From positions 3,210,501-3,274,500 of the forward strand of contig NZ_CP061205.1 in the NCBI RefSeq assembly GCF_015240255.1: a stretch of 64,000 nt of DNA, read 5' to 3'. The DNA comes from Kordiimonas pumila (GTDB lineage Bacteria > Pseudomonadota > Alphaproteobacteria > Sphingomonadales > Kordiimonadaceae). Both the position numbers and the translations under genes were made by a program. Under the pieces are notes generated by a model, which saw only the letters and a program-made list of their open reading frames with translations, was not told the DNA's origin and searched no databases. This document shows, piece by piece, positions 14,801 through 22,629 of the stretch (its first letter is position 1; every line of letters starts with the position of its first letter).

Positions 14801-15502
14801 ATGCGTGTTCTTTTAATTGAAGATGATCCAACAGTTTCCCGCAGCATCGAGCTTATGCTTGGTTCTGAAGGGTTTAATGTATATAGCACAGACTTGGGTG
14901 AAGAAGGTCTCGACCTTGGAAAGCTGTATGACTATGACATTATCCTACTAGACCTTAACCTACCTGATATGCACGGTTATGATGTTCTAAAAAAACTACG
15001 CACAGCGAAGGTGAATACACCTATCTTAATTCTTTCCGGCCTTACTGAAATGGAAAACAAGGTCAAAGGCCTTGGTTTTGGTGCCGACGACTACCTCACC
15101 AAACCTTTTCACAAAGAAGAGCTTGTTGCCCGTATTCATGCGATTGTCCGCCGCTCTAAGGGGCATTCACAGTCGATCATCAAAACAGGGAAACTTGCCG
15201 TTAATCTTGATACAAAAACGGTTGAGGTTGCGAACCAGCGTGTCCACTTAACCGGCAAAGAGTATGCAATGCTAGAACTTTTATCCCTTAGAAAAGGGAG
15301 TACTTTGACAAAGGAAATGTTCCTGAATCACCTGTACGGCGGTATAGATGAACCAGAATTGAAAATTATTGACGTTTTCATCTGCAAGCTCAGGAAAAAA
15401 CTGGCGACCGCCTCGGACGGTGACAACTATATTGAAACAGTATGGGGTCGTGGCTATGTACTGAGAAGCCCGTCGGATGATAATATTGCCGCGGCAAGCT
15501 AA
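14801..15502 (+). CDS. ctrA: Cell cycle response regulator CtrA
   Basis: 233 residues, OmpR-type. The receiver domain (1-116) has the acidic pair near E7-D9, phospho-acceptor D51 (ILLDLNLPD) and KPF switch lysine (TKPFHKEEL). The winged-helix DNA-binding domain (about 125-225) contains [17 protein letters not shown] and [14 protein letters not shown], near-invariant in CtrA. CtrA controls replication, division and flagellar genes and is phosphorylated by CckA through ChpT, whose gene lies 6 kb downstream. The C-terminus ends AAAS, not in two alanines as in Caulobacter CtrA, where that ending marks it for ClpXP. A strong GGGGGATGGA ribosome site precedes the ATG. Confidence 0.97.
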
Positions 15503-18122: not shown

Positions 18123-18608
18123 TTATGCAGCCTTGCCGTTACTTTCAAATGCTAATAATCTGTTTACGTCAAGAATAGGTAGCAATTCCCCTTCAAGACG
18201 GTAAATCCCCCGGCTCACTTCCCGCCAACGTGGGTCAAGTGTCACTGGGTTTTTTTCGAACAACTGGTCATCCAGTGACAAAACTTCCCCAACTGCGTCG
18301 ATCTGTAGGCTGTATGGCTCCTCATTATGCTCTACAACCACAGACATGCTTTGCTTACCTTTTTCAAGTGGCGGCAGCCCTAGCCTGCACCTTAAATCAA
18401 TCGCGGTAACAATACGACCACGTAAATTCAGTACCCCGGCCACCCAGTTTGGGGCGAGCGGGATTTTTGTAATCTGCTGTGCATTTAAAACATCATGCAC
18501 ACCAAGAACCGGGATACCAAGTGTCTGGCCACCAACCTTGATGGTGACATAATCTTTGCTGCCAGTTCCAACAACACTTAGATCATCGCGCACAACGAGG
18601 TTATTCAT
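18123..18608 (-). CDS. cheW: Chemotaxis coupling protein CheW
   Basis: 161 residues, one CheW domain (about 15-155). CheW links CheA to chemoreceptors in the signalling array. Visible signatures are TLGIPVLGVHDVL, the IPLAPNWVAGVLNLRGRIV segment and VDAVGE-like IDAVGEVLSL. Its ATG overlaps the cheA stop codon by 4 bases, indicating coupled translation. Confidence 0.95.
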   Translation of the reverse strand: MNNLVVRDDLSVVGTGSKDYVTIKVGGQTLGIPVLGVHDVLNAQQITKIPLAPNWVAGVLNLRGRIVTAIDLRCRLGLPPLEKGKQSMSVVVEHNEEPYSLQIDAVGEVLSLDDQLFEKNPVTLDPRWREVSRGIYRLEGELLPILDVNRLLAFESNGKAA

Positions 18609-21600
18609 GCTGCATCTCCTTTGATCTTAAGCTGTTGAGCAAGGCTTCTGAGCAGTGTGGCCTTATCATATTTGGCGATATAATCATCAAAGCCTGCCTC
18701 ATGACCGCGCCGGATATCGCGCTCTGTTGCCATAGCAGAAAGGGCAACAAGCGGAATTTTATTCCAGTTATCGCTTGCTTTTATAGCCTGAGCAAACTCG
18801 AAACCATCCATTTTAGGCATATCAATATCTGAAACAATCACATCAAAACTATAGCCTTCATCCATGAGTTTCAAAGCAGCGGCAGCACTAGACACAGAAG
18901 TAACATCATAGCCCGCCACACCCAAAACAGGGTTAAGCATATTCCTGAAAAAATCACTGTCATCAACAAACAAGAGGCTCACACCCTTTTCCGGAGCGCC
19001 GTCATCTCGCTGCGCACCGCTTTTTAGCCAGTCACTAAAGGCAAGGCCAAGATAGTAGGAAACATCAATCACTTCCGTTGTTTTACCGTCAATAACCGCT
19101 GAGCCAACAACACCGTCTCTGCTCGATGCCAGTTTTACATCCAGATGTTCTTCAACAATGTCTTTAATTTCATCGACGGCCAGCCCCATGGTATATTCAC
19201 GGTCGGTAAACACTAGAACCGGCTGCCTGCCACTTTCCTGAAGTTTCATACCCTGATCAGCGAGAATAAGCGGCATCAGCGAGCCACGGTATTGCACCAT
19301 ATGCCTGCCGTCAGAAATTTCAACGCTGGCAATATCAATTTCCTCAAGCCGCGCAACTAAACCTAAAGGCACAGCTTTCGGGTTTTTATTGCCCGCCGCA
19401 AAGACCAGCATACTTTCAGTTGTGCCTTTTGCCGCTTTTCTAATTTGTTCTTTCTCTGCTTCGGCTTCTGCCTCGTGGTCACTAACCCCGTTATTGGCAA
19501 GGGAAGCAATACCATTTGGATCCAAAATCATAATCACACTACCATCACCCAGAATGGTATTTCCTGAATAGATTTGAAGGTCCTTCAAGATAGGGGCAAC
19601 TGGTTTTACAACGATCTCTTCTGTATCAAAAACCTGATCGACAACGATACCAAAAGTAAAAGGGCCAACCTGTGTAACAACAATAAAGTCATCCACATTT
19701 TCGCGTGCATCAATTTCTGCGCGGGTCATGAACCCCAGAACCTCATTCAAATACACAAGCGGCAACAGCCTGTTCCGCAAGCGCAGAACAGGTGTATCCT
19801 TAATGTTTTCAATTTTGTGTTCTGATTTGGCAGAGGCCCGCACAAGCTCTAAAACACTGATCTGAGGAATAGCATAACGTTCGTCGGCGGCTTTCACAAT
19901 CAAGCCCGCCACAATCGCAAGTGTTAGTGGTATTTTAATAGAGAAAGACGTTCCCTTGCCTTCAATGGACACCATATCAATGGTGCCGCCAATTTTTTCA
20001 ATGTTAGAGCGGACAACGTCCATACCAACACCGCGCCCAGAAACGCTGGTAACCTTTTCAGCCGTAGAAAACCCCGGGTGGAAAATAAACTTCTGAACCT
20101 GCGTATCAGACATGTCTTCAAGCTCGGCCTTGGTCGCAAGGCCTTTCTCCAGAATTTTACTAGAGAGCTTAGAAACAGAAATACCGCGGCCATCATCCTT
20201 GATTTCAATGATAATATGGCCGCCCTCATGGTACGCATTCAATACAATTGTGCCATGCGCAGGCTTGCCCAGTGCAATACGCTCTGCCGGTGTTTCTGTA
20301 CCGTGGTCCGCCGAGTTACGCACCATATGCGTTAGCGGATCTTTAATCAGCTCTAAGACCTGCCGGTCAAGTTCGGTTTCTGCACCGATCATTTCCAGCT
20401 CGATTTTCTTATCAAGCTCGACTGTCAAATCCCGTACAATCCGAGGCAGCTTCGCCCATGCGTTCCCAATCGGCTGCATGCGCGTTTTCATAACATTTTC
20501 CTGAAGCTCGGTTGTGCACTGGCTTAGGCGCTGCAACGGCACGGCAAGTTCGGAATTATCAATATCGCGGGTAATTTGTAAAAGCTGGTTACGTGTCAGC
20601 ACCAGTTCCGACACCATGTTCATCAGGTCTTCCAGCAAATCCACGCTTACTCTGATAGACTGGCTAACACGCTTACTTTCCTGCCCAGACGTGTCTTGCT
20701 GGTTAGCGGCACCGGCCTTTGCTTCTTGCCCAGCTTTATTAGCTGGCGCTTTTGCCAGCACTTTAGAGGCGGTAATAACAGCCTCGCGAACAAGTTCAAA
20801 CGTCATTACGGCTTCATCAACAGCATCCTCTGACACTTTGCATTCAGCAAGCACATCCTTAACAACGGTCAAAAGCTGGTCAAATTGCCTATCGCCAAAC
20901 CCTGTCACAGTCACAAGCTGGCGACCAACAGTATCTGCTGTATCGAGGTCATCTTTAAACAAGGCAATCATCAGCCCCATGAAGCGACCCTTGCGCTGAT
21001 CTAGCGTAGAGTTTTCAAAAAACTTTGCCAAATTTGCGTCGTTGGAAAGGCGCGAAGCAATCAAGTGTGAAGCAACAGCGATCGAATCTTCACCGCCAAC
21101 ACGATCAAATAGTGATTTTTGGGTAGACTTTGCAGATGACTTTGATGGCTCAGGCTTTTCGTCAGCGCCTTCATCCGGCCCTGGTGCCGCATTAAAAACA
21201 GCTTCCAGTTCCTCAAGGGAAACTTCGCCAGCCTTCAACGGACGTCCTAGAACCGGGTCAATAATTTCGCCTTCAACGGTATTTGGTTCAGGCTCATCAG
21301 GGGCGCTTATCTCACCCTCGGCAATAGCATCTAACCGACTAATAAGATCGCTATCATCCCCGTCTGGCTCTTCTTCCGTTGCTTCAAGCCCTGCCAGAAT
21401 TTCCTTAATACAATCAAGGCTTTCCAGAATAACGGTTACAGCATGCTCTGAAACCAGTAACTCGCCGTCCCTAAACTTCCCCAGAACGTTTTCTGAAGCA
21501 TGCGCAACAGATTCAAGCCTCGGCAGGCCTAAAAATCCGCACGTTCCTTTAATTGTGTGAACCAAACGGAATATATTATCGAGAACCTCTTTATTGTTTG

Positions 21601-21688
21601 GGTCCTGCTCCAGCTTAACAAGCTCAACATCAACAACGTCAATGCTCTCGCCTGTTTCCGTTAAAAATTCATTTAATAAATCATCCAT
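18605..21688 (-). CDS. cheA: Hybrid chemotaxis histidine kinase CheA with a globin-like insert, two CheW domains and a C-terminal receiver
   Basis: 1027 residues from the ATG at 21688; ATGs at 21697 and 21742 are in frame with no clear ribosome site. Domain order: Hpt (1-110, phospho-His H44 in VHTIKGTCGF), an acidic linker, a truncated-hemoglobin-like domain (about 190-307), dimerisation and HATPase domains (about 342-590, N-box N458, GRGVGMDVV), a CheW domain (about 595-735), a second CheW-like domain (757-885), and a receiver (903-1020, D954). CheA phosphorylates CheY and CheB in response to receptor signals. The globin-like part resembles group 1 truncated hemoglobins (SLFDRVGGEDSI, LAKFFEN) but has valine where the heme-binding histidine belongs. 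The start choice is uncertain by at most 18 residues. Confidence 0.93.
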   Translation of the reverse strand: MDDLLNEFLTETGESIDVVDVELVKLEQDPNNKEVLDNIFRLVHTIKGTCGFLGLPRLESVAHASENVLGKFRDGELLVSEHAVTVILESLDCIKEILAGLEATEEEPDGDDSDLISRLDAIAEGEISAPDEPEPNTVEGEIIDPVLGRPLKAGEVSLEELEAVFNAAPGPDEGADEKPEPSKSSAKSTQKSLFDRVGGEDSIAVASHLIASRLSNDANLAKFFENSTLDQRKGRFMGLMIALFKDDLDTADTVGRQLVTVTGFGDRQFDQLLTVVKDVLAECKVSEDAVDEAVMTFELVREAVITASKVLAKAPANKAGQEAKAGAANQQDTSGQESKRVSQSIRVSVDLLEDLMNMVSELVLTRNQLLQITRDIDNSELAVPLQRLSQCTTELQENVMKTRMQPIGNAWAKLPRIVRDLTVELDKKIELEMIGAETELDRQVLELIKDPLTHMVRNSADHGTETPAERIALGKPAHGTIVLNAYHEGGHIIIEIKDDGRGISVSKLSSKILEKGLATKAELEDMSDTQVQKFIFHPGFSTAEKVTSVSGRGVGMDVVRSNIEKIGGTIDMVSIEGKGTSFSIKIPLTLAIVAGLIVKAADERYAIPQISVLELVRASAKSEHKIENIKDTPVLRLRNRLLPLVYLNEVLGFMTRAEIDARENVDDFIVVTQVGPFTFGIVVDQVFDTEEIVVKPVAPILKDLQIYSGNTILGDGSVIMILDPNGIASLANNGVSDHEAEAEAEKEQIRKAAKGTTESMLVFAAGNKNPKAVPLGLVARLEEIDIASVEISDGRHMVQYRGSLMPLILADQGMKLQESGRQPVLVFTDREYTMGLAVDEIKDIVEEHLDVKLASSRDGVVGSAVIDGKTTEVIDVSYYLGLAFSDWLKSGAQRDDGAPEKGVSLLFVDDSDFFRNMLNPVLGVAGYDVTSVSSAAAALKLMDEGYSFDVIVSDIDMPKMDGFEFAQAIKASDNWNKIPLVALSAMATERDIRRGHEAGFDDYIAKYDKATLLRSLAQQLKIKGDAA

Positions 21689-21809: not shown

Positions 21810-22451
21810 TTATAATGCTTTTTTAAGTAAGCTTGCATGCACTGCAATTTGCTCGCCTTCTGTAAAATCAAGTTCCAGATGCCCACCTAATTCACGCACA
21901 AGAAGCGATGCAAGATGTGCAGGAGCGGTTCTTGGTTCCAGTTCATCCATAGCATTTCCTGCTGTCAGTGTGGCTCTGATATTTTCAGGAAAAATAATAC
22001 GTGCACCACTCGCAAGCACCGATATATTAATGGCCTCATCTGCTTCATCTAGTTGAACCGTAATTTTGCCGCCCCGGATAAGTGTTTCAGAAACCACAAG
22101 ACACAGGTTTAAAAGCAGCTTCACAACGCTTTTGCTCGCACTTGGTACAGATACCTGCCAATCCATTTCAATGCGGCTGCCACTTATCAGGGCGCGTGTA
22201 GCTTTTTCAGCTTCGCGCATATCAAGCTGTGCGGAAAAGCCCCCAGCCGCCCCAAAGGCAAGCCTGAAAAACTGTAATTTATTAACTGTCTGTCTTGTCG
22301 ATTTATCAATAAGATCAAGCACAGCATCGCGCATTGCGGGATCTTTTTCTTCTGCCAGAATTTCAAGCCCGTTATTAATCGCTCCCACAGGGCTAACAAG
22401 ATCATGACACAATCGCGAACATAACAGCGAAGCAAAATCCAGATCAGACAT
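21810..22451 (-). CDS. chpT: Histidine phosphotransferase ChpT
   Basis: 213 residues from the ATG at 22451, preceded by GGGGGAGA; an upstream frame to 22484 is unlikely. Residues 4-20 (FASLLCSRLCHDLVSPVG) contain the phospho-histidine in the CHDLVSP motif characteristic of ChpT. The C-terminal half is a degenerate HATPase-like fold. ChpT passes phosphate from CckA to CtrA and CpdR. The gene lies directly upstream of cheA on the same strand, so the relay gene and the chemotaxis operon may be co-transcribed. In many alphaproteobacteria chpT lies near flagellar or che genes. Confidence 0.9.
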   Translation of the reverse strand: MSDLDFASLLCSRLCHDLVSPVGAINNGLEILAEEKDPAMRDAVLDLIDKSTRQTVNKLQFFRLAFGAAGGFSAQLDMREAEKATRALISGSRIEMDWQVSVPSASKSVVKLLLNLCLVVSETLIRGGKITVQLDEADEAINISVLASGARIIFPENIRATLTAGNAMDELEPRTAPAHLASLLVRELGGHLELDFTEGEQIAVHASLLKKAL

Positions 22452-22629
22452 CTTTTCTCCCCCTATGCACCGCCAGTATACCATCTAAATGAAATACGAC
22501 AGGTTTCTCATGACAGGCAGTTATTTAATACCTATAAAGCAATAACAACTGCTCTGACACGCTACTTTAACCAAGGAATGCATCAGGGCCAAGCAACAAA
22601 ACCAGTATAGTTAATTTTTTGGGGTAGTT

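Follow-up and report, generated by a model that had tools for sequence, protein, structure and literature searches.

Genomic context and domain architecture of CheA

The window, a 64,000-nucleotide stretch of the Kordiimonas pumila genome, contains a chemotaxis cluster in which the minus strand carries chpT, cheA, cheW, cheY, cheB, and cheR, in this order, and the plus strand carries a ctrA-like gene. With chpT upstream of cheA, cheWYBR downstream, and ctrA at the end, the cluster has the layout of the ChpT/CtrA-linked alphaproteobacterial type. Its features relevant to this study are the following:

14801-15502, plus strand: ctrA-like response regulator gene at the opposite end of the cluster (ORF, name assigned from the sequence; also present in relatives)
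18123-18608, minus strand: cheW, the next operon gene after cheA (ORF; adjoins cheA in relatives too)
18605-21688, minus strand: cheA (ORF from the likely ATG, 1027 aa; Pfam domains)
18653-18973, minus strand: C-terminal receiver domain of CheA (Pfam PF00072, E=9.6e-20)
19502-19906, minus strand: P5, CheW-like domain (Pfam PF01584)
19922-20338, minus strand: P4, ATPase domain (Pfam PF02518, E=8.6e-17)
20483-20665, minus strand: P3, dimerization domain (Pfam PF02895, E=2.9e-15)
20639-20761, minus strand: globin-P3 linker, taken as flexible (low pLDDT over residues ~313-350)
20762-21121, minus strand: group 1 truncated-hemoglobin (trHb1) domain, residues ~190-309 (profile, AlphaFold2, Foldseek)
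21065-21067, minus strand: His208, globin position B7 (alignment)
21194-21229, minus strand: conserved short motif GEVSLEELEAVF in the P1-globin linker (conservation; predicted helix)
21413-21682, minus strand: P1, Hpt domain (Pfam PF01627, E=1.4e-14)
21810-22484, minus strand: chpT-like phosphotransferase gene upstream of cheA (ORF; same place in nearly all relatives)

According to the Pfam matches, Hpt, dimerization, ATPase, and CheW-like domains follow one another as in CheA histidine kinases, and the core of the protein is 90% identical to that of the CheA of Kordiimonas gwangyangensis. The ORF and the Pfam domains together define a hybrid CheA with the order P1, globin, P3, P4, P5, second CheW-like domain, and receiver domain. 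The second CheW-like domain is located between P5 and the receiver domain (19019-19420). A weak second globin-like match at residues ~780-880 of several CheAs corresponded to this domain and had a chance-level score; it was rejected.

Identification of a truncated globin in CheA

CheA residues ~190-308 constitute a group 1 truncated hemoglobin domain. An earlier note on this DNA had proposed such a globin, located after the Hpt domain (P1) and before the dimerization region (P3), and our analysis confirms both the identity of the domain and its site. Taken singly, the sequence (residues 190-307, QKSLFDRVGGEDSIAVASHLIASRL...AVITASK) scored 18.1 bits (E=0.003) against Pfam Bac_globin, slightly below the 21-bit cut-off, and matched Chlamydomonas THB1 in the PDB weakly (E=5e-4). 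The search with a domain profile built from 31 orthologues gave a clear trHb1 match: THB1 was retrieved from the PDB at E=7e-14, followed by some twenty further truncated-hemoglobin chains at E<0.01. Alignment by hhalign with ten free trHb1s encoded in the same genomes or in related ones reached a probability of 99% (E=6e-18) over 116 columns. Of the profile members themselves, 18/31 matched Bac_globin at E<=1, the best at 1.3e-6.

Structure prediction and fold search, likewise proposed in the earlier note, returned a truncated-globin fold. The AlphaFold2 model of the domain (34 sequences) had a pLDDT of 94.5 and a pTM of 0.87, with helices at domain residues 7-10, 13-28, 43-58, 62-70, 80-96, and 101-124. 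The top Foldseek matches were exclusively truncated hemoglobins (best 1dlw, E=9e-5, TM 0.74/0.81), and the VIA Z against 1dly was 14.5 across 115 residues. The domain thus has both the sequence similarity and the predicted 2-over-2 fold of trHb1. Neither of the outcomes that the earlier note had named as refuting a globin, a different predicted fold or no profile match above background, occurred. The Pfam score of the single sequence, just below the cut-off, might be taken to indicate a helical P2-like domain with a chance likeness to globins, but the profile and structure searches both find truncated globins and intermediate sequences score clearly above the Pfam cut-off; we regard this explanation as refuted.

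Distribution among CheA proteins

A survey of CheA proteins for the same insert, also suggested earlier, found it in relatives, several of them with the proximal histidine. The orthologous ChpT/CtrA-linked CheA was present in 137 of the 385 alphaproteobacterial genomes drawn, and about 20 of these 137 have a trHb1 between P1 and P3, one of them (L148) being marginal. The insertion site is constant: it is always the P1-P3 gap, in one CheA lineage and with the same neighbor genes. The globin is common to nearly all Kordiimonas-type CheAs, including those of every member sampled from the window's family, and is patchily distributed in many other alphaproteobacterial CheAs. It was found in Kordiimonas laminariae, K. 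marina, K. aquimaris, K. sediminis, Pseudokordiimonas caeni, Eilatimonas milleporae, Rhodothalassium salexigens, and Iodidimonas muriae. The close relatives L066-L068 have no globin in CheA, and therefore the kinase can function without the domain. Because the combined profile was trained on some of the surveyed sequences, its E-values are circular for those; the Kordiimonas-only profile A1 found most globin-CheAs independently, with the exceptions of L138 and L148.

When 398 genomes were drawn across the phylum, the globin-CheAs among the matches listed were all alphaproteobacterial. The only other frame longer than 900 aa among these matches (L198) is not a CheA. The long frames with a C-terminal globin from outside Alphaproteobacteria (L198-L201) have no further Pfam domain and are probably read-through frames and not fusions. 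Plasmid-borne CheAs of Azospirillum matched in P1 and P3 but not in the globin, and a plasmid search with a His-keeping globin as the query yielded other trHbs only. In family f193, which lies outside Alphaproteobacteria, adjacent pairs of free trHb genes occur in many genomes (e.g., G485:C44:10911-11777).

A second globin was detected within the CheW-like P5 domain of L119/L194 (L119 residues 706-826) and of L123 (residues 656-776). The P5 loop at residue ~656 of the window's CheA corresponds to this second insertion site of the two relatives. The same loop holds other inserts of roughly 30-150 residues in L070, L073, L145, L150, and L151.

Heme-binding and clade-specific residues

The earlier note had stated that the proximal histidine is absent and that valine stands in its place. 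The histidine is indeed missing, but the valine assignment was incorrect, as the alignments place the F8 site in a deletion of 3-4 residues between 'DTVG' and 'RQLV' (DTVG----RQLV in the window versus AYMRRAHKGLV). None of the 23 Kordiimonas-type rows of the alignment has the F8 histidine. Neither distal residue of heme-binding trHb1s is present in the window: B10 is Ala instead of Tyr (Ala or Ser in most Kordiimonas-type rows), and E11 is Phe instead of Gln in the profile alignment. The pre-F loop is shortened and helix F is reshaped; the GG motif and the Phe pair (FF) of helix C/CD are kept. Since the F8 histidine, TyrB10, and GlnE11 are all replaced, canonical heme chemistry is absent, and judging from these residues the domain presumably exists in a heme-free state.

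Other CheA globins differ in this respect. The F8 histidine and TyrB10 are kept in L121, L122, L132, L195, L197, and both copies of L194, and the F8 histidine is kept in both copies of L123. Families f94 and f111 have Phe at F8, and in family f44 helix F is deleted. Family f8 (L065, L080, L082, L083, and L084) has Phe at F8 and helix B histidines at both B7 and B10.

His208 (B7, residue 20 of the domain) is present in 22/23 Kordiimonas-type rows, in 0/21 other CheA globins, and in 0/25 other trHbs. D13, V17, and K45 of the domain are also conserved specifically in the window's clade. The i, i+4, i+7 spacing of D13, V17, and H20 may place these residues on the same face of helix B. The clade with the almost invariant helix B histidine is precisely the one without F8, which could mean that the window's domain retains heme through a non-canonical ligand (e.g., histidine B7) and responds to O2, NO, or redox state; the retained Phe pair and GG motif, as well as the second histidine at B10 in family f8, are compatible with this. 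However, the joint change of TyrB10, GlnE11, and the geometry of helix F fits a filled pocket better. Moreover, B7, a polar position in other trHbs, is located one helical turn ahead of B10 and therefore probably does not face the iron. We consider heme retention of this kind unlikely.

Evolutionary history of the insertion

Mapped onto the CheA tree, the presence or absence of the globin requires 11 changes, of which at least 5 are forced. On the globin tree, 43/44 CheA globins are separate from the free trHbs, and the AU test does not reject a single clade of CheA globins (p=0.42). In L123, the second globin clusters with the free trHbs. The domain may have been gained once at an early stage and then lost many times, or it may have been gained on a few occasions. 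In CheAs of the window's clade, the GEVSLEELEAAF motif lies N-terminal to the globin; it is not found in the His-keeping CheAs, and therefore the insertions may not all represent one event.

An alternative history would be the independent capture of a trHb1 in each lineage, in which case the window's domain would never have been a gas sensor of CheA. The patchy distribution with its forced state changes, the position of the second globin of L123 among free trHbs, and the restriction of the linker motif, among globin-CheAs, to the window's clade are in favor of such captures. The separation of almost all CheA globins from the free trHbs, the single clade that the AU test allows, and the constancy of the P1-P3 gap, the CheA lineage, and the neighbor genes argue against them. 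We therefore rate independent capture as a serious but rather unlikely scenario. The ligands are retained by the free trHbs and by those CheA globins that are less derived; the ancestral state was therefore probably heme-competent, and this competence was then lost in several lineages, including that of the window.

Selective constraint and linkers

Among Kordiimonas relatives, the globin domain is 60-71% identical, similarly to the receiver domain, and P1 is 92-97% identical. Raw pN and pS were used because saturation of synonymous sites makes dN/dS unusable; pN is ~0.2 versus a pS of ~0.8, the latter being near saturation. The globin domain is therefore under purifying selection. This bears on the possibility that it is a neutral relic, i.e., a spacer that merely keeps P1 on a long tether. 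The loss of the heme residues and the lack of the domain in the close relatives L066-L068 would agree with a relic. The intact predicted fold, the purifying selection, the new residues conserved specifically in the clade, and the presence of the domain in every member sampled from the window's family do not, and we find this explanation very improbable.

The full-length CheA model had a mean pLDDT of 69.7 and a pTM of 0.28; its relative domain placement is not to be trusted. Within it, the globin kept a pLDDT of 84-94, and residues 168-190 and 313-350 had values of only 26-39. The identity of the globin-P3 linker drops to 31-55% among Kordiimonas orthologues. The low-confidence flanks of the model fit a globin held on two flexible tethers.

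In the P1-globin linker, the GEVSLEELEAVF region is modeled as a helix at residues 158-167, with low confidence in the full-length model. Kordiimonas-type CheAs conserve the motif whether or not they have the globin, and many families of Alphaproteobacteria have CheAs with the motif but without the globin. The motif was found in no sampled globin-CheA beyond the window's clade, including the sampled ones that keep the heme residues. The motif may serve for docking of response regulators.

Comparison with known systems

The domain belongs to the same family as the group 1 trHbs HbN, Chlamydomonas THB1, and the Paramecium and Tetrahymena trHbs, sharing the predicted 2-over-2 fold, GG, and FF. 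It differs from them in lacking the F8 histidine, TyrB10, and GlnE11, in its shortened pre-F region, and in being embedded in a kinase, whereas these trHbs are free-standing.

The globins of globin-coupled sensors are of the 3-over-3 kind. In these sensors (HemAT receptors, histidine kinases, and cyclases), as in the window's CheA, a globin is joined to a signaling output. However, their heme-binding globin is N-terminal, whereas the window has a truncated globin internal to CheA, and this globin has lost the canonical ligands. The globin passages of a 2026 review on aerotaxis receptors describe HemAT as a globin joined to chemotaxis output and mention no kinase of the kind reported here (PMC13401364).

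A heme-free globin in a signaling protein has a precedent in RsbR. The N-terminal domain of RsbR in the Listeria stressosome is a non-heme globin that binds Prli42 (PMC6614362), and Vibrio RsbR is a heme-binding globin sensor (PMC9237108). Listeria RsbR thus contains a heme-free globin with heme-binding relatives, and the window's CheA seemingly does so too; RsbR, however, has a different globin type and a stressosome output, whereas the window's domain is in a chemotaxis kinase. By analogy, RsbR provides a precedent both for a heme-free docking globin and for a heme-binding sensor among its relatives.

P2 of CheA is an alpha/beta domain that binds CheY. In E. coli CheA it occupies the same P1-P3 position on flexible linkers as the globin does here. 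No match to P2 or CheY-binding families was found in the window's CheA with Pfam at E<=10.

Truncated-globin family domains are known from chemosensory systems: Corallococcus coralloides has an MCP with PAS and Bac_globin domains (PMC6194562), where the globin is in the receptor and not, as here, in the kinase. We observed a similar receptor in an alphaproteobacterium (G343; L120, 3465-6326), with a truncated globin, PAS, and MCP arrangement of ~950 residues and with the F8 histidine and TyrB10. In Magnetospirillum, cheOp1 is required for aerotaxis (PMC12442639). Our search of open-access papers found no published case of a globin inside CheA, in agreement with the earlier note, which knew of none; an earlier mention elsewhere is possible. 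The papers that came closest were those on the Corallococcus MCP and on the aerotaxis receptors cited above.

Functional interpretation

The heme residues are lost in the window's CheA and kept in matching kinases of other alphaproteobacteria; the kinase therefore seems to have acquired a module for sensing O2 or NO that was repurposed later. We infer ancestral gas sensing, a docking function, and an effect on kinase activity along the following path. A trHb1 would have entered the P1-P3 linker of a ChpT/CtrA-linked alphaproteobacterial CheA, which presumably turned the kinase itself into a heme-based gas sensor, and several living lineages retain the proximal histidine and TyrB10. In Kordiimonadales and their neighbors, the proximal histidine, TyrB10, and GlnE11 were lost and the pre-F loop was shortened with retention of the fold, and new conserved residues (Asp13, Val17, and His20) arose on helix B in the window's lineage. 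The domain would now most likely be a docking or regulatory module that lacks heme and is flexibly tethered; by binding a protein or small-molecule partner, it may change how readily P1 reaches P4 or response regulators. As a whole, this conversion of a former gas-sensing module of CheA into a heme-free docking or regulatory domain is the explanation that we favor, with a chance of being correct that we put slightly above even.

For the CheAs that keep the histidine, direct gas sensing by the kinase would be the simplest reading. The earlier note had suggested a repurposed sensor or docking module that would pass gas, redox, or protein signals to the kinase; for the window's domain, a heme-free docking or regulatory role appears to be a better guess than gas sensing. 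The broader proposal that the CheAs of several alphaproteobacterial families are heme-based sensors of O2 or NO that need no receptor, by means of a truncated globin in the P1-P3 gap and in some cases another one in P5, and that Kordiimonadales lost the heme and gained a binding surface, is tentative, and we place it somewhat short of an even chance.

Chemotaxis kinases are usually viewed as obtaining gas and redox signals via receptors. With heme-competent and heme-less CheA globins present in relatives, gas sensing by the kinase itself can be tested directly. The CheA globins may represent a natural series showing the conversion of a heme sensor into a regulatory domain without heme.
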